DNA from: Duncaniella freteri
GTDB taxonomy: Bacteria; Bacteroidota; Bacteroidia; Bacteroidales; Muribaculaceae
Direction: 5' to 3'
DNA length: 64,000 nt
NCBI RefSeq assembly: GCF_004766125.1
Contig: NZ_SJSA01000001.1
Coordinates: forward strand, 1,798,001 to 1,862,000
A model generated the notes under the pieces. It was not told where the DNA came from and ran no database searches. It worked only from the letters and a program-made list of their open reading frames with translations. Positions 2,925 through 20,183 of the stretch are shown here, one piece after another. A program made the position numbers and the translations under genes. Every line of letters starts with the position of its first letter. Within the stretch, counting starts at the first letter, position 1.

Positions 2925-3680
2925 ATGGAACATAATATAAATGTAAACCTCAAGATTTGGCGCCAGCGTAGCCCGAAAGAACCGGGGGCGTTCAAGAACT
3001 ACCGTGTGGAGAACGTCTCCACCGGAAGCAGCTTCCTCGAAATGCTCGATATGCTCAACCAGCAGCTCGTAGAGAAGGGTGAGGAGCCTGTGGTATTTGA
3101 CAGCGATTGCCGCGAGGGTATCTGCGGTATGTGCTCTCTTTATATCAACGGACATCCCCATGGTCCGGTACAGGGCATAACCACCTGTCAGCTCCACATG
3201 CGTAAGTTCAACAACGAGGACACCATCACCATCGAACCGTGGCGTTCTGCCGCATTCCCTGTGATACGCGACCTTATGGTCAACCGTAATGCCTTTGACC
3301 AGATACAGCAGGCAGGAGGTTACGTGTCGTTCAATTGTGGCGGAGCTCCCGATGCCAACAATCTCCCCATATCCAAGGAGGTTGCCGATATAGCAATGGA
3401 CTCTGCTACATGTATCGGTTGCGGTGCATGTGTTGCAGCTTGCAAGAATGGTTCTGCAATGCTCTTCGTCAGTGCCAAGGTAAGCCAGTTTGCCCTTCTT
3501 CCCCAAGGTCAGGTTGAGCGTGCCCGCCGTGCCCGCGCCATGGTCAGCAAGATGGACGAGCTTGGCTTCGGCAACTGTACCAACACCGGAGCTTGTGCGG
3601 CTGAGTGTCCCAAGAACATCTCGCTCAGCAACATCGCCCGCCTCAACCGCGAGTTCATCAAGGCAAAGTGTGCCGATTGA
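2925..3680 (+). CDS. frdB: Fumarate reductase/succinate dehydrogenase iron-sulfur subunit
   Basis: Electron-transfer subunit linking the haem anchor to the flavoprotein. It carries the three standard clusters. The plant-type [2Fe-2S] motif [10 protein letters not shown] provides C62, C67 and C70, with a further Cys at 88. The [4Fe-4S] motif [11 protein letters not shown] lies at 163-173. The remaining cysteines, C218, C224 and C228 (ACAAECP), serve the [3Fe-4S] centre and the last [4Fe-4S] ligand. The gene is 251 residues long, lies 30 bases after frdA, and is followed by a strong terminator, so it closes the operon. Confidence 0.96.
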
Positions 3681-3754
3681 TCTGACTATAGAGAGTTGAT
3701 AGCGGTATAGTGGCGGAGACATCCGTCCGGCAACAGCTCTCAGTCATTATTTAT

Positions 3755-3799
3755 AAAAGGAACAGCAGAATATATATTCGTTCTGCTGTTCCTTTTTCG
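3755..3799 (+). terminator. Intrinsic terminator after frdB
   Basis: A perfect 16-base inverted repeat (3755-3770 and 3781-3796, core GGAACAGCAGAA/TTCTGCTGTTCC) with a 10-base loop ends in a T run. The A run on the left means it could also work on the other strand, but no gene there requires it. Confidence 0.9.
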
Positions 3800-4151
3800 T
3801 GTTATGCACATTAAGTGGGATTTAAGTACTGAGAAACTATTGCTTCCCTATTAAATTTGCATTATAGAGCATGTTTTATAAGAATCTGTAATATTTGTTC
3901 GTAATTATTTGGTTTAATGATTCATAACACGTATATTTGCGAAAGACGTCATTATCACATTTTCATTCATATTCATTAATGTAATCCAAACCTGTTTATT
4001 CCTCTGATAAATGTACTGCCATGAAAAGATGTAATTTAATAGCCAATATATGCTGCATTGTTTATGGCAGGTGTTGTCGGGTGGTGTATGCATGTCCGAT
4101 TTGCAAATTGGAATATCCCGATGCGGTTGATTATAACAAAGCGGAGATAAG
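3797..4151 (+). promoter_or_regulatory. Leader region and promoter of the lipoprotein gene
   Basis: This stretch has no long gene. TTTG at 3908-3911 and TATATTTG at 3932-3939, 20 bases apart, form a good Bacteroidetes promoter for the 4152 gene, leaving an unusually long leader of about 205 bases. Within the leader, a 45-codon ATG frame (4021-4158) with seven Cys codons runs into the lipoprotein start in another frame. It may be a translated upstream ORF or chance. The part before 3908 is AT-rich and I see nothing else in it. Confidence 0.6.
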
Positions 4152-5227: not shown

Positions 5228-8137
5228 ATGAAAACATATCCCCTACATACTGCGAGACTGTTCATATTACTCATCGTATCGTTAGTGGCTGTCATGGCTT
5301 TCGCCGAAGAGAAGCCTTTGACTCTGTATGGCAGAATTAAGGAATCGGTGTTCAAGAACGACTTGCCTGAAGCATGGGTATACACAATTGATGAGAACGG
5401 TAACCGCAAGGATTCTCTGACGGTATGGAACAAGAGCAATTCGATGTTCAGTGACGGTGTTATAAATGATTTTGCCCGTATTTCATTCCTCGTGGAAAGG
5501 AAGGATTCGGTGTATGTTTTTGAGGTGGGATGTGAAGGATATACACCCCGGACTGTTGTATATAAGGTGGAGAATGTAGGCGATCGTGAGGATACGAGAA
5601 ATATTCCTGACATATATCTCGACCGTGCTCCCCACAAGCTGCGTGAGGTCGAGGTCACAGCCTCAAAGATCAAATTCTATCACCGTGGCGACACCATAGT
5701 GTACAATGCCGATGCATTTCAGCTCGCCGATGGATCGATGCTTGATGCTCTCATATCGCAACTGCCTGGTGTGGAGCTCAGTGATAACGGACGGATCACT
5801 GTCAACGGTGAGTTTGTGGAGTCATTATTGCTCAATGGCAAACATTTCTTTGACGGCAACAATAATATAATGCTTCAGAATATAGGAGCTTATACGGTTA
5901 AGAATGTTGAGGTGTATCGCGGGCATTCGTTGATGGAGAAGTTTCACGATAATCTTAATGCTCCCAAGCGTCTCACAATGGATGTGAAGCTCAAAAAGGA
6001 GTATTCGATTGGGTGGATAGCGAATGCACAGGCTGGTTATGGCACAGAGTCACGTTTCATGGGCAGACTGTTTTCCGCATGGTTCACATCGTCAACCGAG
6101 GTAGTGTTTCTTGGTAACATCAATAATCTGAATGACAACCGTGAGCCGGGTAAGAATAGCTCATGGACCCCTGAGCAGATGCCTTCCGGCACGCGCAGGT
6201 ATCAGCTTGCCGGGCTCAATTATCAGCATAGGGTACCGTCGGGTAACAGATTTGCCAGAGGTAACATTACATATGAGGGAAATAGACTCAACAGCAGTAC
6301 TGTGACCGACAGAACAAATTTCTTCTCTACAGGTAATACCTACGACTATAGTAGTGCCGGTGACAGATATAAGGATTTCAAGGTCCGTACCAACCATTCA
6401 TTCGGACGTAAATTTAATGGAGTAAGCATCTCGGCAGATGTCGCCGGAAGCTATTCTCGTACAGACAATACGTCATCGAGCCTGTCGGCCACATTTGACA
6501 GTGAGCAGTCTGGAATGTCGTTGCAGGCACTTGAAGCTGTATATGCCACCGGATTGTCTGAACAGCTGTCCTCCATTATCAATCGTTCCAGGCAACTCAA
6601 TAACGGACTGAACAAGGCAGGCAGCGTCAACGGAGGCGCAATGCTTTCGTATAAAATACCTCAAAGTCCTGACCGGATATATGCCCAGATGGCGGTAAGC
6701 TACAGTTCCCGCAAATCGGAGGCATGGCATGATATAAACGTAAATTATAGTGATAATTCCATAGCGGGTATCAGACAGAGAAATTACACTTACGGATCGC
6801 CTGACAGTGACTTTACACTGCGTGCCGGCACAGGTTACAATTGGAGAAAAGGTATGCTGTCAGGTGCGGTGAAGTACGATTATAATTTCCATAACCGTGA
6901 CAGAGACTCTTACATGTATGCCCTGGAGCGTCTTGGTGATGATATGGGCGTGTATGGGGAACTTCCGGCGGGTTATCAGTCATGTCTTGATGCAGGCAAC
7001 AGCTATACTTCGCGGCTTTGTGAGAACAAGCATACATTGTCGCTTGAATTAATGTATCTCGGCAAATTGTCCAATGGCAATTCCTTGCAGATCAGATTTG
7101 AGCCTAATGTCGGTGTGCTCCATAGCAATCTGCATTATTTCAGTGACAATAAGGCATATCCGGTGAGCCGTACATCTGCGCTGTTCTCTATAGCTGATCT
7201 TGGCGGATCGATAAGATACCAATGGGGCGGTCCTGCCAAAAAATCGGCAATGCAGATTCTGACACTGAAATATGGTCTTGACACAGGCACACCTGATCTG
7301 CTGCATTTGGTGGATGTGACCAACACTTCCGATCCTCTCAACATATCAGTCGGCAATCCTGACCTTAAAAACTCTCATACGTATAAAATGGGGCTGTTCT
7401 ATATGATATCGCCTAAAAACTATATGAGCAATACTGTGACAGTGGACTTTTCTGTCACTGACAATGCTCTGGTGAGGGGATATTACTATGACAAGACTAC
7501 AGGTGTACGTTACAACAAGACCTATAATGTGAGCGGGAACAATTCCTTAAAAGCCGAGAATGTGTTTAATCTTCAGTTTGGCAGAAGAAAGCAATTTACG
7601 TTGTCATCGGCTACTGTGGCTGGCAATATACATAGTGTGGATATGGTGGGTACTGACGGAATGGAGCCGGCTCCGTCAAAGGTGGATACACGTACTCTAA
7701 GCGAGAATATAAGGGTGTCGTGGCAGATAGGCAAGCACTCGTTATCGTTGAACGGAGTGGTGTCGGACCGCCGCACCACATCATCGCGTGATGGGTTCAA
7801 TGATATCAATGCCACGCATTACAATTATGGTGTCACAGGCTCATTTGCTCTCCCGGCAGGATTCGGTATAAGCACCGATTTCAGATTATACACACGCCGT
7901 GGCTACGGTATGCGTCAGCTTGACACGACTGATGCCGTGTGGAATGCGCGCGCCACCTACACTCCGCGTGGAGGACGATGGGTATTCACTCTTGACGGCT
8001 TTGATCTTCTCAGGCGTCTTAATAACATTCACTATGCAGTCACAGCCACAGGACGTACAGTAACATATACCAACACATTGCCGCGCTACATCTTATTTTC
8101 GGTGCAGTATCGTCTCAACATACAGCCTAAGAAGTGA
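5228..8137 (+). CDS. Outer-membrane beta-barrel protein with plug-like domain (TonB-receptor-like)
   Basis: This 969-residue protein has a signal peptide (about residues 1-26, cleavage after MAFA) and an N-terminal carboxypeptidase-regulatory-like beta domain (about 30-135). A plug-like segment covers about 138-231 and includes GDTIVYNADAFQLADGSMLD and LPGVELSDNGRITVNG. The remainder is a long barrel of alternating strands ending in an aromatic terminal strand (ILFSVQYRLN). This arrangement is typical of the outer membrane beta-barrel family related to TonB-dependent receptors. No clear TonB box is visible, so energy coupling is uncertain. There is no SusD partner, which argues against a SusC role. 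A close paralogue follows at 8292. The ligand is unknown. Confidence 0.75.
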   Translation: MKTYPLHTARLFILLIVSLVAVMAFAEEKPLTLYGRIKESVFKNDLPEAWVYTIDENGNRKDSLTVWNKSNSMFSDGVINDFARISFLVERKDSVYVFEVGCEGYTPRTVVYKVENVGDREDTRNIPDIYLDRAPHKLREVEVTASKIKFYHRGDTIVYNADAFQLADGSMLDALISQLPGVELSDNGRITVNGEFVESLLLNGKHFFDGNNNIMLQNIGAYTVKNVEVYRGHSLMEKFHDNLNAPKRLTMDVKLKKEYSIGWIANAQAGYGTESRFMGRLFSAWFTSSTEVVFLGNINNLNDNREPGKNSSWTPEQMPSGTRRYQLAGLNYQHRVPSGNRFARGNITYEGNRLNSSTVTDRTNFFSTGNTYDYSSAGDRYKDFKVRTNHSFGRKFNGVSISADVAGSYSRTDNTSSSLSATFDSEQSGMSLQALEAVYATGLSEQLSSIINRSRQLNNGLNKAGSVNGGAMLSYKIPQSPDRIYAQMAVSYSSRKSEAWHDINVNYSDNSIAGIRQRNYTYGSPDSDFTLRAGTGYNWRKGMLSGAVKYDYNFHNRDRDSYMYALERLGDDMGVYGELPAGYQSCLDAGNSYTSRLCENKHTLSLELMYLGKLSNGNSLQIRFEPNVGVLHSNLHYFSDNKAYPVSRTSALFSIADLGGSIRYQWGGPAKKSAMQILTLKYGLDTGTPDLLHLVDVTNTSDPLNISVGNPDLKNSHTYKMGLFYMISPKNYMSNTVTVDFSVTDNALVRGYYYDKTTGVRYNKTYNVSGNNSLKAENVFNLQFGRRKQFTLSSATVAGNIHSVDMVGTDGMEPAPSKVDTRTLSENIRVSWQIGKHSLSLNGVVSDRRTTSSRDGFNDINATHYNYGVTGSFALPAGFGISTDFRLYTRRGYGMRQLDTTDAVWNARATYTPRGGRWVFTLDGFDLLRRLNNIHYAVTATGRTVTYTNTLPRYILFSVQYRLNIQPKK

Positions 8138-8234
8138 TGGCTGGGTTCTGTTTATAGGTGGTGAGTTGGACCGATTATTGTAATCCTTTATTATGCTTTA
8201 TGGGGGTACAATATGTAGTTTTATCAATGATTTC

Positions 8235-8265
8235 TTGTTGGTTTCGAATTCATTGCTTAGATTTG
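8235..8265 (+). promoter_or_regulatory. Promoter of the second barrel gene
   Basis: TTG at 8235-8237 and TAGATTTG at 8258-8265 with a 20-base spacer match the Bacteroidetes promoter pattern. The start codon at 8292 lies about 20 bases beyond the predicted transcript start. The second barrel gene can therefore be expressed separately from the first. Confidence 0.6.
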
Positions 8266-8291
8266 TATCTAAATAAATAATTATACAGATA

Positions 8292-11279
8292 ATGAGTGAC
8301 TTAATGCGAATTTTTGTTTCGCTTGCTCTGGTGGCAGTCAGTACGTATGCATCGATGGCGCAACATATGGTCATGTCCGGTATTTCACGCCAGGGCGGTT
8401 ACTCATATGTGGATGGCAGCCGTGTTCATCCCGACAGTCTGCTTATAGAGGGGCGTATTGTGGAGTCGTTGGTCAAACGTGACCTGATCGATGCTTTCAT
8501 GATACCGATAGATGACGACGGCAATCCCGGTGATACCATAAAGGCGAGAGCCAGATATGCCTTTACCCATTCAGATCATGTCCGGAACATGTCGTATATC
8601 GAATTCATGACTGAACACAAGGATTCGACCTATGTGTTTGAGATAGGGTGTCCGGGATACACATCTCAGACAATAGTGTATAAGGTCGAACGCCTGGGCA
8701 AGCGCGAACTGAAGCGCGAGATGCCATTGACCGAGCTCGTGCGTGAGCCTCATAAACTCGGAGAGGTGGAGGTGGTGGTCTCGAAAGTGAAATTCTTTCA
8801 TAAAGGCGATACGCTGGTCTACAATGCCGATGCATTTCAGCTTGCCGAAGGATCGATGCTTGATGCCCTGATAGCCCAGCTTCCCGGAGTGGAGCTTAAC
8901 AGCAATGGGGAGATCAAGGTGAACGGTGAGAAAGTGGAGTCGCTGCTTCTGAACGGTAAGGAATTCTTCGACAAGGACCGCAATATCATGCTTGAGAATC
9001 TCGGTGCCTATACGGTAAACAATGTCGAGGTGTACCGTGGTCAGACAAAACGTGAAAAGTGGATTGATGATCCTAACGCACAGAAACATCTCACGATGGA
9101 TGTAAAACTCAAGAAGGAATATTCCATGGGATGGCTGCTCAACTCTGAGGCGGGGTATGGAACAGAGGATCTCTACACAGCGAGGCTCTTTGCTTCATGG
9201 TTCAGCAACACTTCGCGATTTACGCTTTTAGGCAACATGAACAATGTGGGCAATAATTTTAACCTGAGCAGTCCGGAGCACAATGTGGTGAGCATGGGGG
9301 GAGGAAGATCGTTTACTCCATCGGGCCGTAGCCGTTATAAGAATATCGGGCTTGACTATTCGTTTGATACCAATAATGAGGCAAACAACTTTCATGGGTC
9401 ATTTGTGTACACCGGTGACAATGATGCGCGAACAACAACAGCCAACAAAATCAATTTTTTCAATACAGGCGATACATATGAGTATTCATATTCCGGAAAC
9501 CGAAGCCGGAATATGAGGCTTGGCACATCTCATGCCATGATGTTTGATCTCGGACGGTTGAATATCACAGGGAGCATGAGCGGAAGTTATAGTTCCAACG
9601 ATAATTCTTCAAAATCGCTCTCCGCAAGCTTCAATGAGGAGATGGAGGATGCGACAGTCGAATTCATCGAGAACCTATACAGTTCAGCCACTCCCGAAGA
9701 GCTTGCCGCCATCATAAATAGAAATGTCAGCAAAAGTGATAGCGAAGGGAAGAGCGGAAACGCATCGTTCAGTTCAGAAGCTATTTATAAGGTGCCGGGA
9801 ACATCTGATAAACTCTTATTCTCGCTATCGTCAGGATTTTCTGTAAACAAGGCGCACAGCTGGCAAGACTACTTGATAAATTTTGGTGCAGACCATGTTC
9901 CCTCCGAACATCGCCGACAGTACACCGACCAATCTCCCAACAGAGATTTCAATATCTCAGGTTCGCTTGGCTATACGGCGAGAATCCGTAATGTGAGTCT
10001 TGATCTGGTGTATGAGGCATCTTACTCGGAAGGCAAGAACGGTTCTTATATGTATGCACTTCACAAGCTTGACGACATGGGGGTATACGGTGGTGTTCTG
10101 CCCCCGGGTTATGAATCGACTTTTGACCCTTCCAACAGTAATTCTTCAAGCAACAGTCAGAGGAATCACTCTTTACAGTCTAATTTTAGGTATGTTACAC
10201 AATTTGATAGCGGATATGAGCTTAATATATTTGTAATGCCTACGATAAGGCTTGTTAACCGACATCTTGATTATTGGCGAGACAGTAAAAATTATAATAT
10301 AAGAAAAAACAATTTTCAGTTTTCCAGTGCAGTTGTCAACATAAGGTTCGGTAAAAGAAGTTTCATGACGGAGTCTCTGTCGCATGCATTGTCGTATCAG
10401 TATGCCTTGTCGACCAGTCTTCCTGGGCTTCTCAGCCTGGTGGATGTGGTGGATGATTCCAATCCTCTTTATATATCGGAGGGTAATCCTGACCTGAAAT
10501 CGTCAACGGTGCACCATCATTCAGTTAGCTGGAATATTTCTGGCAAAGGTATGGTATCAAACAGTTTGAGCCTTAGTTATAGTCATACCAATAATTCGAT
10601 TGTCAATGGTAATTCATATGACACATCCACAGGCGTGAGCCGTACACGTATGTATAATGTCAACGGTGACAACGATGTGTCGCTGTCGGACTTTGTTCAC
10701 TTCGGATTCGGAAAGGACAGATGCTTCACTCTGTCATCATCCTCGACATTGAGCCGCAGGCATGATGTGGATATGATCGGCACCAACGGCGCGGCCCCGT
10801 CCAGGACCTATGCCGATACATGGGCCATAAGTGAGAATGTCAATCTGGGATGGCGTAGCCCGAATTTTAAACATAATGTATCGATAGTCGGAAATATATC
10901 CAACAACCGCACACGTTCGGCACGAGAAGGTGCCAATAATGTGAATTCGGTCCATGTCAGCTATGGGCTGACAGGTATGTGCACTCTTCCCGGCGGCTTC
11001 CGGATCAACACCGATCTTAATTTCTATACCCGGCGTGGCTATGGTTCAAGGGAGCTTGACACCACCGATGCCATGTGGAATCTCAGTGCTTCCTACACTC
11101 CGAAGGGGAACAAGTGGGTATTCACTGTCAAGGGATTCGACATTCTCCAGAGTCTTTCAAACGTTTATTATTCAGTGACAGCCTCAGGACGTTCTGTATC
11201 CTATTCCAACACTCTTCCGCGCTATGTGCTTTTCACGGCGCAGTATCGTCTGAACCTTCAGCCGAAAAAGCGCATGTGA
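8292..11279 (+). CDS. Outer-membrane beta-barrel protein, tandem paralogue
   Basis: At 995 residues this is a paralogue of the preceding gene with the same order: signal peptide (ends near SMAQ, residue 24), regulatory-like beta domain, plug-like segment and barrel. The plug is almost unchanged (GDTLVYNADAFQLAEGSMLD and LPGVELNSNGEIKVNGE), and the end is nearly the same (LPRYVLFTAQYRLNLQPKK). The barrel loops differ much more. That is the usual pattern after duplication when the two copies adapt to different ligands or phages. It has its own promoter. A start four codons later (Met5) is possible and would suit the signal peptide equally well. The ligand is unknown. Confidence 0.75.
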   Translation: MSDLMRIFVSLALVAVSTYASMAQHMVMSGISRQGGYSYVDGSRVHPDSLLIEGRIVESLVKRDLIDAFMIPIDDDGNPGDTIKARARYAFTHSDHVRNMSYIEFMTEHKDSTYVFEIGCPGYTSQTIVYKVERLGKRELKREMPLTELVREPHKLGEVEVVVSKVKFFHKGDTLVYNADAFQLAEGSMLDALIAQLPGVELNSNGEIKVNGEKVESLLLNGKEFFDKDRNIMLENLGAYTVNNVEVYRGQTKREKWIDDPNAQKHLTMDVKLKKEYSMGWLLNSEAGYGTEDLYTARLFASWFSNTSRFTLLGNMNNVGNNFNLSSPEHNVVSMGGGRSFTPSGRSRYKNIGLDYSFDTNNEANNFHGSFVYTGDNDARTTTANKINFFNTGDTYEYSYSGNRSRNMRLGTSHAMMFDLGRLNITGSMSGSYSSNDNSSKSLSASFNEEMEDATVEFIENLYSSATPEELAAIINRNVSKSDSEGKSGNASFSSEAIYKVPGTSDKLLFSLSSGFSVNKAHSWQDYLINFGADHVPSEHRRQYTDQSPNRDFNISGSLGYTARIRNVSLDLVYEASYSEGKNGSYMYALHKLDDMGVYGGVLPPGYESTFDPSNSNSSSNSQRNHSLQSNFRYVTQFDSGYELNIFVMPTIRLVNRHLDYWRDSKNYNIRKNNFQFSSAVVNIRFGKRSFMTESLSHALSYQYALSTSLPGLLSLVDVVDDSNPLYISEGNPDLKSSTVHHHSVSWNISGKGMVSNSLSLSYSHTNNSIVNGNSYDTSTGVSRTRMYNVNGDNDVSLSDFVHFGFGKDRCFTLSSSSTLSRRHDVDMIGTNGAAPSRTYADTWAISENVNLGWRSPNFKHNVSIVGNISNNRTRSAREGANNVNSVHVSYGLTGMCTLPGGFRINTDLNFYTRRGYGSRELDTTDAMWNLSASYTPKGNKWVFTVKGFDILQSLSNVYYSVTASGRSVSYSNTLPRYVLFTAQYRLNLQPKKRM

Positions 11280-17130: not shown

Positions 17131-17273
17131 CACCGAAAAATAAGTCAAAAATTCATATTGCAAGCGGTAATACCGTGAAAATAAAGTCGATAAATCCCTG
17201 TGCTTTAGTGACTTGTTTTCTAAACAACTGTTTCAACAAAAAAGAGAGCTTGCATACATTAAATTTAGAAGAT

Positions 17274-18131
17274 ATGAGTTATAATCTTTTGAAAGGTAAG
17301 CGTGGTGTGATATTCGGCGCGCTTAACGACAAGAGTATCGCCTGGAAAGTGGCTGAGAAGGCCGTTGAGGAGGGTGCGATCATTACTCTTAGCAACACAC
17401 CTGTTGCTGTGCGTATGGGTGAGGTATCCCAGCTTGGCGAGAAGCTTAATGCAGAGGTGATCCCTGCCGATGCTACCAATATCGAAGATCTTGAGATGGT
17501 GTTCCAGCGTTCTATGGAAGTGCTTGGAGGCAAGATCGATTTCGTTCTCCACTCTATAGGCATGTCACCCAATGTGAGAAAGAAGCGTCTGTATGACGAC
17601 ATCGATTATGATCTGCTTGGCAAGACACTCGACATCTCAGCCATCTCTTTCCATAAGATGATTCAGGCTGCAAAGAAGCTTGATGCTATTGCAGAGTACG
17701 GAAGCATTCTGGCTCTCAGCTACATCGCTGCTCAGCGTACAATGTTCGGATACAACGATATGGCTGATGCCAAGGCTCTTCTTGAGTCTATAGCACGCAG
17801 TTTCGGATATATCTATGGCCGTGAGAAGCATGTGCGAATCAACACCATTTCACAGTCACCCACAGCCACCACAGCCGGAAGTGGCGTGAAAGGCATGGAC
17901 TCGCTTATGGACTTCGCCAACCGTATGTCCCCCTTAGGCAACGCTACAGCTGAAGAATGTGCCGACTACTGCATCATGATGTTCTCCGACCTCAGCCGTA
18001 AGGTGACAATGCAGAATCTCTTCCACGATGGAGGCTTCTCAAGCATGGGTATGAGCCTTCGTGCGATGGACCAGTACGAAAAGAGTTTCGATCTCTACCG
18101 CAATGCTGACGGAACCATACAGTATGGTTAA
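17274..18131 (+). CDS. fabI: Enoyl-[acyl-carrier-protein] reductase (NADH)
   Basis: FabI reduces the double bond of enoyl-ACP in the last step of each fatty-acid elongation cycle. The product is 285 residues from the ATG at 17274 (MSYNLLKGKRG), the usual start in Bacteroidales. An in-frame GTG 99 bases earlier would add an unusual Cys-rich extension and is not preferred. Family marks are the nucleotide-binding start GVIFGALNDKSIAW, the segment LHSIGMSP, and the catalytic pair Tyr150/Tyr160 with Lys167, ten and seven residues apart as in E. coli FabI. The gene converges on trpB, and a shared bidirectional terminator separates them. Confidence 0.95.
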   Translation: MSYNLLKGKRGVIFGALNDKSIAWKVAEKAVEEGAIITLSNTPVAVRMGEVSQLGEKLNAEVIPADATNIEDLEMVFQRSMEVLGGKIDFVLHSIGMSPNVRKKRLYDDIDYDLLGKTLDISAISFHKMIQAAKKLDAIAEYGSILALSYIAAQRTMFGYNDMADAKALLESIARSFGYIYGREKHVRINTISQSPTATTAGSGVKGMDSLMDFANRMSPLGNATAEECADYCIMMFSDLSRKVTMQNLFHDGGFSSMGMSLRAMDQYEKSFDLYRNADGTIQYG

Positions 18132-18217: not shown

Positions 18218-19408
18218 CTAACATTCATCTTGCATGTATGTGAGCATATCCTTGTCTCCACGGCCGGAGACATTGATCACAACAGTGTCGGTGGGCTTGA
18301 ATCTCTTTACATCAAGGACCCCGAGAGCGTGAGCCGATTCAAGAGCCGGGATTATACCTTCGATTCGTGAGAGACGGAAAGCGGCATCGAGAGCCTGGCG
18401 GTCAGTGATGGCGAGCACTTGGCTGCGTCCGGATGTTGCAAGATAGGAGTGAAGGGGACCTACGCCGGGATAATCCAGCCCTGCGGAAATTGAATAAGGC
18501 TCGATCACATTGCCGTCTTCGGATTGCATGACCAATGTTCTTGACCCATGCAGGATGCCTTCCGTGCCTAACGTCATGGTGGCGGCGGTGTGTCCGGAAT
18601 CCACTCCGAGTCCGGCTGCTTCGGCTGCAATCAGTCGTACCGATGGCTCGTTTATGAAATGATAGAACGCTCCGGCAGCATTGCTGCCTCCTCCTATGCA
18701 TGCTATCACATAGTCAGGTAGTTCCGATCCGGTCTGCGAAAGGAGCTGACTGCGTATCTCACTTGATATCACCGACTGGAAATGTGCCACCATCTCGGGG
18801 TATGGATGAGGTCCTACGGTCGAGCCTATCACGTAGAAGGTGTCGGGATTGGAGCACCAGTAGTTTATAGCCTCGTTAGTGGCGTCCTTGAGGGTGCTGC
18901 TGCCGCTTTTGACGGATTCGACTTTAGCCCCGAGCATAAGCATGCGGTCAACGTTAGGTTTCTGTCGTGCCACATCGGTTGCGCCCATGAACACGGTGCA
19001 TTCCATTCCCATAAGCGCACATGCTGTTGCCGTGGCGACACCATGCTGTCCGGCCCCGGTTTCAGCTATTATGCGGTGCTTGCCCATGCGCTTGGCGAGA
19101 AGCACAGAGCCGAGAGCATTGTTGATTTTGTGGGCACCTGTGTGATTGAGATCCTCTCGTTTGAGATAGATATTGGTGTTGTAACGTTCGCTCAGCCTGT
19201 TTGCCCGGTAGAGTGGGGTGGGGCGGCCTACATAGTCGCGTAGCAGGGTGTCAAGCTCTTGATTGAATTCCTTGTCGGCTGCATATCTGTAGAATGCTTC
19301 GCGGAGGAGCCGGATGTTCTGTTGGAGAATTTCCGGGATGTATGCGCCTCCGAAATGTCCGTAATAGCCTTCCTCATCTACAGGAAGGAGTGAATGAAAT
19401 TGTGTCAT
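18218..19408 (-). CDS. trpB: Tryptophan synthase beta chain
   Basis: TrpB joins indole and serine to make tryptophan, using PLP. The 396-residue protein is full length. The PLP lysine is Lys94 in HTGAHKINNALG, the catalytic Glu is Glu116 (AETGAGQHG), and the phosphate-binding loop GGGSNAAG lies at 239-246. It is of the common TrpB1 type. Unusually for Bacteroidales, no other trp gene lies beside it, so it stands alone here and needs TrpA from elsewhere. It is preceded by a leader peptide with Trp codons and a terminator, pointing to control by charged tRNA-Trp. Confidence 0.95.
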   Translation of the reverse strand: MTQFHSLLPVDEEGYYGHFGGAYIPEILQQNIRLLREAFYRYAADKEFNQELDTLLRDYVGRPTPLYRANRLSERYNTNIYLKREDLNHTGAHKINNALGSVLLAKRMGKHRIIAETGAGQHGVATATACALMGMECTVFMGATDVARQKPNVDRMLMLGAKVESVKSGSSTLKDATNEAINYWCSNPDTFYVIGSTVGPHPYPEMVAHFQSVISSEIRSQLLSQTGSELPDYVIACIGGGSNAAGAFYHFINEPSVRLIAAEAAGLGVDSGHTAATMTLGTEGILHGSRTLVMQSEDGNVIEPYSISAGLDYPGVGPLHSYLATSGRSQVLAITDRQALDAAFRLSRIEGIIPALESAHALGVLDVKRFKPTDTVVINVSGRGDKDMLTYMQDEC

Positions 19409-19460: not shown

Positions 19461-19501
19461 AAAAAAGAGGAGCCGCCGATGTATCATCGATGGCTCCTCT
19501 T
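19461..19501 (-). terminator. Attenuator terminator ahead of trpB
   Basis: On the minus strand AAGAGGAGCC (19501-19492) pairs with GGCTCCTCTT (19474-19465), with an inner 5-bp stem (CGATG/CATCG), and is followed by a T run. It ends about 55 bases before the trpB start codon and faces the same way as trpB, as an attenuator should. It could also end read-through from the gene upstream. Confidence 0.85.
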
Positions 19502-19582
19502 GGATATCTTTTCAGGAAAATGCTTTTGTGATCGCTAACTATATATGTGTGCGATAATGCCATCGATAATCTTTACCGATGC
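19486..19582 (-). promoter_or_regulatory. Alternative pairing elements of the trp attenuator
   Basis: Region 1 (minus strand 19582-19577, GCATCG), just after the tandem Trp codons, can pair with region 2 (19567-19559, ATCGATGGC) with one bulge. Region 2 is perfectly complementary over 9 bases, and 12 with one G-U pair, to region 3 (19494-19486, GCCATCGAT), which is part of the 5' arm of the terminator. The 1:2, 2:3 and 3:4 pairings are thus mutually exclusive, as in the classic trp leader. Confidence 0.7.
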
Positions 19583-19619
19583 GCCACCAATAGTTCTGAT
19601 TGTTGAGCATATTTCTCAT
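19539..19619 (-). CDS. Trp-rich leader peptide of trpB (attenuator ORF)
   Basis: This is a 26-codon ORF with an ATG about 13 bases after a predicted transcript start and a TAG stop about 38 bases before the terminator hairpin. It has TGG at codons 11, 12 and 20: two adjacent Trp and a third within 26 residues, where chance would give less than one. The sequence around the pair is QNYWWRIG, and the third is in YRWHY. It is too short to be an enzyme and lies exactly where a trp leader peptide should. When tryptophan is short, a ribosome held at codons 11-12 would cover pairing region 1 and free region 2 to break the terminator. Translation itself is not proven by sequence. Confidence 0.75.
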   Translation of the reverse strand: MRNMLNNQNYWWRIGKDYRWHYRTHI

Positions 19620-19638
19620 TTTGTCGTATTTCTGTCGG

Positions 19639-19669
19639 CAAAATTATATCTAATAATTCAAACTGCCAA
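19639..19669 (-). promoter_or_regulatory. Promoter of the trp leader and trpB
   Basis: TTG (19669-19667), 20 bases and TAATTTTG (19646-19639) on the minus strand. The predicted start near 19632 gives a leader transcript of roughly 170 bases up to the terminator. Confidence 0.7.
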
Positions 19670-19685
19670 GAATTTTACTGAAATT

Positions 19686-20183
19686 TTATAGGTTGATTAT
19701 TTTTTTTATAGTCTGTATCGACGGGTTGACTGCTATGATTTTGCCCGCAGGGTTGATGAGATAGGAGGAGTATCCACCTTCGGGATGGTATCCGGGTGAT
19801 ATGCCGTGCGCCTTGACGTTGCGTATATGGAACTGTGTGAGAGAGTCGAGACCGTCATTTCGCACTATCTCGTTGAACAGTTTGAGGTTATCGTCGGTAT
19901 TGACTGAGAGAAGCTGGATGTTCTTGTGCTTGTTGTCACGGAAGAAGCGGTCATACTCCCCTGCGGCGATCCTGGATACAGCATTGTGCGAGTCCCAGAA
20001 GTTCACCAGCACATATTTGCCTTTCAGATCGGACAGTGATATCTCACCGTGGTTTCCGTGCACTTCCGTTATGTGTGGTTGCTGTTTGAGTTCCGGAGTG
20101 CGCTGTACGACGCGTTCGGCAAACATCCACACTGCAAGTATGAATATCGCTACAAAGGTTGTGAATATCCAGAACGTTCTCAT
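19686..20183 (-). CDS. TlpA/thioredoxin-fold membrane-anchored protein lacking the CxxC cysteines
   Basis: This 165-residue protein has one N-terminal membrane segment (about 3-20) and a periplasmic thioredoxin-like domain. The strand and turn GKYVLVNFWDSHNAVSR match the TlpA active-site region, where the usual pattern is W-x-x-W-C-x-x-C-R. Both cysteines are replaced, by Asn67 and Ser70, and no other Cys is present. It therefore cannot do thiol-disulfide exchange; a binding or structural role is more likely. It is the last gene of the RND efflux operon, 35 bases after the outer-membrane factor. There is no evident terminator before the trpB leader promoter. Confidence 0.7.
   Translation of the reverse strand: MRTFWIFTTFVAIFILAVWMFAERVVQRTPELKQQPHITEVHGNHGEISLSDLKGKYVLVNFWDSHNAVSRIAAGEYDRFFRDNKHKNIQLLSVNTDDNLKLFNEIVRNDGLDSLTQFHIRNVKAHGISPGYHPEGGYSSYLINPAGKIIAVNPSIQTIKKIINL

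Follow-up and report, generated by a model that had tools for sequence, protein, structure and literature searches.

On the minus strand of the 64,000-nucleotide stretch of Duncaniella freteri DNA analyzed here (the window), from 19669 to 18218, trpB is preceded by a promoter-like site, a leader ORF of 26 codons, and a hairpin terminator, in this order. This arrangement is very likely an attenuator-controlled, stand-alone tryptophan synthase beta subunit (TrpB) that would serve in indole salvage. That a gut bacterium with a reduced tryptophan pathway keeps trpB under what appears to be a Trp-shortage switch suggests that it salvages the indole of its neighbors. The locus had been described in an earlier note as a complete trp attenuator in front of an orphan trpB; the feature is confirmed as real, and the attenuation interpretation is supported and largely right. 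The parts of the locus, with the evidence for each, are as follows:

19639..19669, minus strand: Bacteroidota-type promoter-like site, TTG-N20-TAATTTTG (sequence reading; similar motif in homologous leaders)
19539..19619, minus strand: leader peptide ORF, 26 codons plus TAG (WW leader ORF in 68/79 family trpB loci)
19584..19589, minus strand: tandem Trp codons 11 and 12, putative control codons (simulated antiterminator peak with the A site here)
19573..19581, minus strand: region 1, predicted to pair over 9 bp with region 2 (19569-19561) (fold; co-variation)
19559..19570, minus strand: region 2, holding Trp codon 20 (19562-19560), predicted partner of region 1 or 3 (co-variation)
19483..19494, minus strand: region 3, 5' arm of the terminator and predicted antiterminator partner, 12 bp (co-variation)
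19461..19501, minus strand: predicted intrinsic terminator, 3:4 stem 19501-19465 plus U tract (fold; covariance model R1 placement)
18218..19408, minus strand: orphan trpB, encoding a tryptophan synthase beta subunit of 396 aa (TIGR00263, 572 bits)

The earlier note had proposed a TTG-N20-TAATTTTG promoter, a 26-codon ORF with Trp at positions 11, 12, and 20, and a terminator 55 bases before trpB. These elements are all present: the TTG at 19669-19667, the N20 spacer, and TAATTTTG at 19646-19639 on the minus strand; the ORF at 19619-19539, whose product is MRNMLNNQNYWWRIGKDYRWHYRTHI followed by the stop, with Trp residues 11, 12, and 20; and a stem at 19501-19465 (-25.2 kcal/mol by RNAfold) that lies 56 nt ahead of the trpB start at 19408. 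The fold of the leader region beats its shuffles (z of -3.0), with an equally good fold in 3/200. A simple terminator scan returned zero hits at the window hairpin, presumably due to one A.C mismatch inside the stem, and a sigma-70 promoter scan found no match on the leader strand at either the window leader or the Parasutterella leader described below. The trpB product passes TIGR00263 (572 bits versus a curated cutoff of 392). The gene is isolated and has no downstream partner, since the fabI-like ORF 3' of it (17265-18131) is convergent from the opposite strand, pointing toward trpB. The ORF 5' of the leader (19686-20183, minus strand) is ResA/TlpA-like by a weak NCBIfam match (30.7 bits); its translation contains zero cysteines, so the usual thiol-disulfide oxidoreductase role is unlikely.

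Absence of trpA and the TrpA interface

The window genome (G000, 99.93% complete) gave no match to trpA, trpD (PF00591), trpC (PF00218), or tnaA (TIGR02617), and in such a cell TrpB is most likely used for indole salvage. The label "orphan" given earlier to this trpB is valid as far as the genome was searched for trpA, trpC, and trpD. Among 247 Muribaculaceae genomes, drawn evenly from a larger group and searched with the window TrpB, a TrpB match (E up to 1e-60) was found in 79 and trpA (E up to 1e-20) in 64. A total of 18 of the 79 have trpB without trpA (G000, G004, G008, G033, G071, G078, G082, G133, G158, G176, G178, G214, G236, G240, G242, G251, G254, and G263), including four genomes with completeness below 90% (G214, G236, G251, and G263). 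trpC was absent in all four trpA-less genomes searched for it (G000, G004, G008, and G033), and tnaA-like genes, below the family cutoff, occur in 4/18 (G176, G178, G214, and G242). The five nearest relatives of the window TrpB (84 to 85% identity; G009, G014, G275, G007, and G012) keep trpB together with a same-strand trpA ∼4.5 kb downstream.

The TrpB tree comprised 91 rows, namely, 78 of the 79 family sequences (the partial G199 was excluded) and 13 others. One clade (100/100) unites 15 of the 18 trpA-less TrpBs with the Parasutterella TrpB. The window TrpB sits in a clade with five trpA-bearing genomes (100/100), that of G008 in a clade of three rows, the other two being from trpA-bearing genomes (96/92), and that of G071 outside the orphan clade at a weakly placed position. 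If Parasutterella is treated as an orphan, four changes are required on the best tree (four in the bootstrap range), and the starred branches force three. Lone trpB would have arisen four times on the best tree, three of them forced, and we infer the direction to be from operon to lone trpB. The tip branch of the window TrpB measures 0.21, versus 0.048 to 0.097 in its five sisters.

Positions that contact TrpA were taken from PMC8187860, the available excerpts of which report simulations of tryptophan synthase that include the A198W variant. Arg175 (Salmonella numbering) is conserved in 60/60 TrpB rows from trpA-bearing genomes and in 0/16 members of the clade, and the same column holds N in G000 (Asn182) and G071 and R in G008. 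Among the 210 columns conserved in the 60 rows, half or more of the clade members show a change at 6/9 contact columns, versus 16/201 of the other columns (Fisher p of 4.6e-5, with clade members that are not independent). The number of contact changes is 0 in 53 and 1 in 7 of the 60 rows, 2 in G000, 3 in G071, and 0 in G008, which lacks trpA, retains all 9 scored contacts, and is a counter-case. The clade, G000, and G071 were counted as separate events of interface loss. As for membership in an alpha-beta complex, for which both a genomic trpA and intact contact residues would be expected, no trpA was found in the window genome and the window TrpB lacks the full set of contacts.

The attenuator may work as proposed and the lone TrpB may nevertheless carry out another reaction, such as serine deamination or the use of other indoles, with Trp control being incidental. 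The much-altered TrpA face of the trpA-less clade would suit such a change of function. However, HTGAHKIN, which we take to hold the PLP lysine, and AETGAGQHG are identical in 16/16 clade members, SGRGDKD is found in 15/16 (the other one being gapped), and control through Trp codons fits Trp as the product, which makes this explanation unlikely. GGGSNAAG is exact in 8/16, with variants of its last part in the others listed. The clade, and separately the window TrpB, has shed the predicted TrpA-contact Arg while the catalytic motifs stay, and synthesis of Trp from indole is the reading retained here.

Leader conservation and RNA pairing

Leaders were scored in up to 300 nt upstream of trpB as ATG ORFs of 8 to 45 codons with adjacent Trp codons (WW), together with a strict hairpin-plus-T-run terminator. 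A WW leader ORF is found at 68/79 family trpB loci and is joined by the strict terminator at 64/79; the leader is present and the strict terminator missing in G032, G036, G142, and G242. Mononucleotide shuffles gave WW alone in 1/395 and WW plus terminator in 0/395. As a second background, 418 ORFs of at least 150 aa in the window and 30 loci yielded 38 WW leaders, 31 of which belong to trpB; the other ORFs, at most 387, gave 7 WW leaders, 2 with a terminator. A TA-N2/3-TTTG motif occurs upstream in 61/68 leaders, at a median of 58 nt ahead of the Trp codons (shuffles, 174/1360).

Eleven family loci have no scored leader. Three of these (G155, G265, and G277) have the Trp codons with an ORF start beyond 300 nt, G089 has visible Trp codons in a sequence containing Ns, and G147 is at a contig edge; no leader was found upstream of trpB in G070, G084, G112, G166, and G223. 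By eye, G013 (L015), which has trpA in its genome, shows a single-Trp leader (MKQNASYYLRWRRFGLLIRPK...) and a hairpin before trpB, apparently a degenerate or different attenuator. In other sampled Bacteroidales families, a WW or WWW leader precedes trpB in L019, L021, L022, L023, and L024. No leader is visible before trpB in L026, L028, and G051, nor in L025, L029, L030, G050, and G060, where a same-strand trpC lies ∼0.7 kb upstream, so that trpB is internal to an operon.

WWW is present in 5/68 family leaders, those of the trpA-less clade loci G078, G133, G178, and G254 and of the trpA-bearing G142 (WWW loci listed: L114, L116, L119, L125, and L159, plus L052 of Parasutterella), and a third Trp lies within 12 codons in 37/68. 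In G014, G008, and G002 (L003, L008, and L012), the frame is shifted and region 2 is kept with its Trp out of frame, which suggests that Trp11 and Trp12 are the control pair and that Trp20 reflects RNA pairing.

Pairing was compared between each leader's own regions and swapped ones, using 5,000 permutations, in three sets: 33 TGGTGG-selected leaders, 64 family leaders, and 17 trpA-less leaders. In the 33 leaders, the 2:3 value was -14.9 for own and -12.5 for swapped regions (0/5000), 1:2 and 3:4 were likewise own-specific (0/5000 each), and the 2:4 control was null (2285/5000). The 64 family leaders gave a 2:3 value of -15.5 versus -12.2 (standard deviation, 0.3; 0/5000) and 0/5000 for each of 1:2 and 3:4; the 2:4 control was weakly nonnull in this set (254/5000) and null in four overlapping sets. 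In the 17 trpA-less leaders, 2:3 (-16.5 versus -12.6; standard deviation, 0.7) and 3:4 were both specific at 0/5000, 1:2 was weakly specific (202/5000), and 2:4 was null (1198/5000).

An alignment of 25 of the 33 leaders (L014, L016, L019, L021 to L024, and L055 were left out) is paired at 97.0% for 2:3, with 4/8 pairs doubly changed (0/500 shuffles), and at 89.0% for 1:2 with 3:4 (0/500), with 9/19 pairs changed on both sides (4/500); such shuffles leave relatedness in, and the 2:4 control partly removes it. Further pair types of 1:2 with 3:4 were not above the shuffles (136/500). The mutually exclusive 1:2, 2:3, and 3:4 pairings thus appear to be maintained by co-variation. All three pairings claimed earlier are there and co-vary; the antiterminator, given as 9 bases, instead spans 12 bp (19570-19559 with 19494-19483) with one G-U. 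The earlier note had also named its own refutation test, a lack of conservation in relatives; when this check was run, the Trp codons and the complementarity of regions 2 and 3 were found to be kept.

The leader could also be a relic of a lost trp operon that is now decaying. Its origin in an operon is very probable, given the trpA ∼4.5 kb downstream in the five nearest TrpB relatives, but all 18 trpA-less loci retain the WW leader (17/18 with the strict terminator, the hairpin of G242 being bulged), and the own-specific 2:3 pairing of the 17 trpA-less leaders (0/5000) includes the long-branched clade, so that decay is improbable. That the hairpin merely terminates the upstream same-strand gene (20183-19686), which ends ∼185 nt before it, and that the WW ORF arose by chance is scarcely credible, considering the promoter-like site between that gene and the hairpin, the joint occurrence of leader and hairpin in 64/79 trpB loci versus 2 of the other ORFs (387 at most), and the varying ORF layout around trpB between loci.

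Simulated stalling and the proposed switch

Each nascent leader was folded as far as the terminator loop under a ribosome mask covering the 15 nt that precede and the 13 nt that follow the start of the A-site codon. The mean expected number of 2:3 pairs across the 64 leaders is 3.4 in the free RNA, 10.0 with the ribosome at the first Trp, 9.6 at the last Trp, and 1.9 at the stop; the window leader gives 3.8, 11.9, 11.9, and 2.5, respectively. Stalling yields 3 or more pairs beyond the free state in 46/64 leaders and beyond the stop state in 54/64. Not all leaders show a clear switch: in 18/64, the gain over the free state is below 3 pairs, and one of these loses at least 3. When the mask is slid along the RNA, 2:3 pairing peaks at the tandem Trp codons (mean of 9.5 pairs at -3 nt and 8.7 at +3), with 0.8 pairs at +15 and 5.2 at -15. 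In these simulations, a stall on the Trp codons would free region 2. A role of Trp20 as a third control codon was considered and rejected: this codon lies inside region 2 (CGATGG), +24 from Trp12, and a ribosome there would block 2:3 (0.3 to 0.5 pairs).

We propose the following mechanism. Transcription would start at ∼19632, and a ribosome would then begin the leader ORF. With uncharged tRNA-Trp, the ribosome would stall at codons 11 and 12 and cover region 1, upon which regions 2 and 3 would pair (12 bp), exclude the terminator, and allow trpB to be transcribed. With plentiful Trp, the ribosome would proceed and cover region 2, or depart and let 1:2 form, and the 3:4 stem would stop transcription at ∼170 nt. 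TrpB would act without TrpA, most likely condensing external indole and serine to Trp, and indole salvage would be turned on upon Trp shortage.

The combined evidence supports the leader as a putative ribosome-mediated trp attenuator of the trpL type. In Escherichia coli trpL, tandem Trp codons precede regions that pair in 1:2, 2:3, and 3:4 order, and region 1 is beneath the stalled ribosome. The window leader resembles trpL (Rfam RF00513) in all three respects and differs in that it precedes a lone trpB instead of an operon, has a Bacteroidota-type promoter-like site, and holds region 2 within the ORF. The earlier assignment to a proteobacterial type of architecture is borne out by this order of pairing; the mechanism, however, is not exclusive to proteobacteria, as Rfam RF01692 is a Bacteroidetes trp leader.

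The Parasutterella locus and related systems

Parasutterella excrementihominis YIT 11859, a betaproteobacterium, encodes a TrpB 68% identical to that of the window (L052), with the leader MYFNVASHSWWWPIDFTRWCWSNA and a terminator upstream of trpB. No TAnnTTTG was found within 120 nt before the leader ATG, and neither trpA nor tnaA was matched in the genome. Neighboring genes include a DASS symporter, a PpiD-like peptidylprolyl isomerase, proA, and holA. The segment at 6697-10377, with the attenuator, trpB, and the DASS symporter, is flanked by two tRNA-Asp genes (104-nt repeat, 88% identity), an arrangement resembling an island or a tRNA duplication. The protein cluster with 97% identity to the Parasutterella TrpB has 854 member sequences, so this type of protein is common; its attribution to Parasutterella depends on one contig. 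The best reading is a transfer of leader and trpB from Bacteroidales to Parasutterella, and the WWW in the Parasutterella leader, as in the clade loci, hints that the two moved together.

With moderate confidence, we regard the attenuator and stand-alone TrpB as a recurrent, self-contained indole salvage module that originated three or four times in the Muribaculaceae by operon reduction, gave rise to a specialized clade without the TrpA interface, and crossed phyla together with its leader to enter Parasutterella. Gut indole is usually regarded as a final product and a signal. A Trp-sensing switch kept through repeated reductions on the enzyme that converts indole to Trp points to selected indole cross-feeding, which is testable. 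The analysis also marks a natural clade of stand-alone TrpBs that is useful for studying how TrpB works in the absence of TrpA.

Indole salvage in Chlamydia trachomatis likewise uses outside indole, the presumed substrate here, with a reduced set of trp genes. The trpRBA system of that species (PMC7755916) differs in having TrpR, YtgR, and TrpA; in our case there is a leader peptide, and TrpA was not found. Excerpts of PMC11917138 describe plTrpB of Pelodictyon luteolum as a standalone TrpB1 that is highly active without TrpA and has a TrpA partner; for the window TrpB, no trpA was found and contact residues are lost.

The Rfam scan of the window returned no family at gathering score. RF00513 (Trp_leader) reaches 21.6 bits (E of 0.046) in the window, under its cutoff of 41, and RF01692 (Bacteroid-trp; cutoff of 49 bits) is unlisted for the window region up to an E of 5. 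RF01692 exceeds its cutoff in 0/247 family genomes, with three scoring beneath it, and passes in L021 and L022 among 20 loci scanned and, as a control, in the Bacteroides ihuae genome; the leaders of one Bacteroidales family thus score below the Rfam cutoff for trp leader RNA. Excerpts of Weinberg et al. 2010 (PMC2864571) list Bacteroid-trp, from Bacteroidetes, as an RNA with a likely cis-regulatory role, and those of PMC6414381 place it upstream of the Flavobacterium psychrophilum trp operon. RF01692 is, like the window element, a Bacteroidetes trp gene leader RNA, with repeated UGG codons in its alignment, and it is unlike the window-type leaders in the sequences of the stems, the family lying below the model cutoff. 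The window element is probably homologous to RF01692 and of the same kind, as both occupy the same place before the same gene, and it appears to fall outside the RF01692 model. The matches listed from the open-license PMC literature showed no earlier description of a lone trpB under attenuation in Muribaculaceae or Parasutterella, and the excerpts of PMC4833913, PMC2965389, and PMC7366714 name no trp leader in Bacteroidota. Among the matches listed, and as far as they cover the literature, a leader on trpB without trpA, its repeated reduction, and a trpA-less clade appear to be new.

A covariance model built from 25 leaders, the window sequence included (R1), places the window element at 19592-19462 with 90.5 bits, a score that includes its own sequence in the model. 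Across the order, R1 matched 24/393 genomes at E up to 0.001: three family genomes are strong (at least 86.7 bits), and the other 21 have matches of 27 to 35 bits. Other targets of the leader were sought among 20 family R1 matches away from a found trpB and rejected, most looking like plain terminators; L131 has a WW ORF of doubtful meaning, and G171 has a clear WW leader and hairpin at a contig end (L150, G171:C10:3348-3499). In the latter genome, trpA was found and trpB was not, the trpB having probably been lost to assembly. Near the G014 trpB locus, L003 carries a Cobalamin riboswitch at 3641-3834 (117.9 bits).
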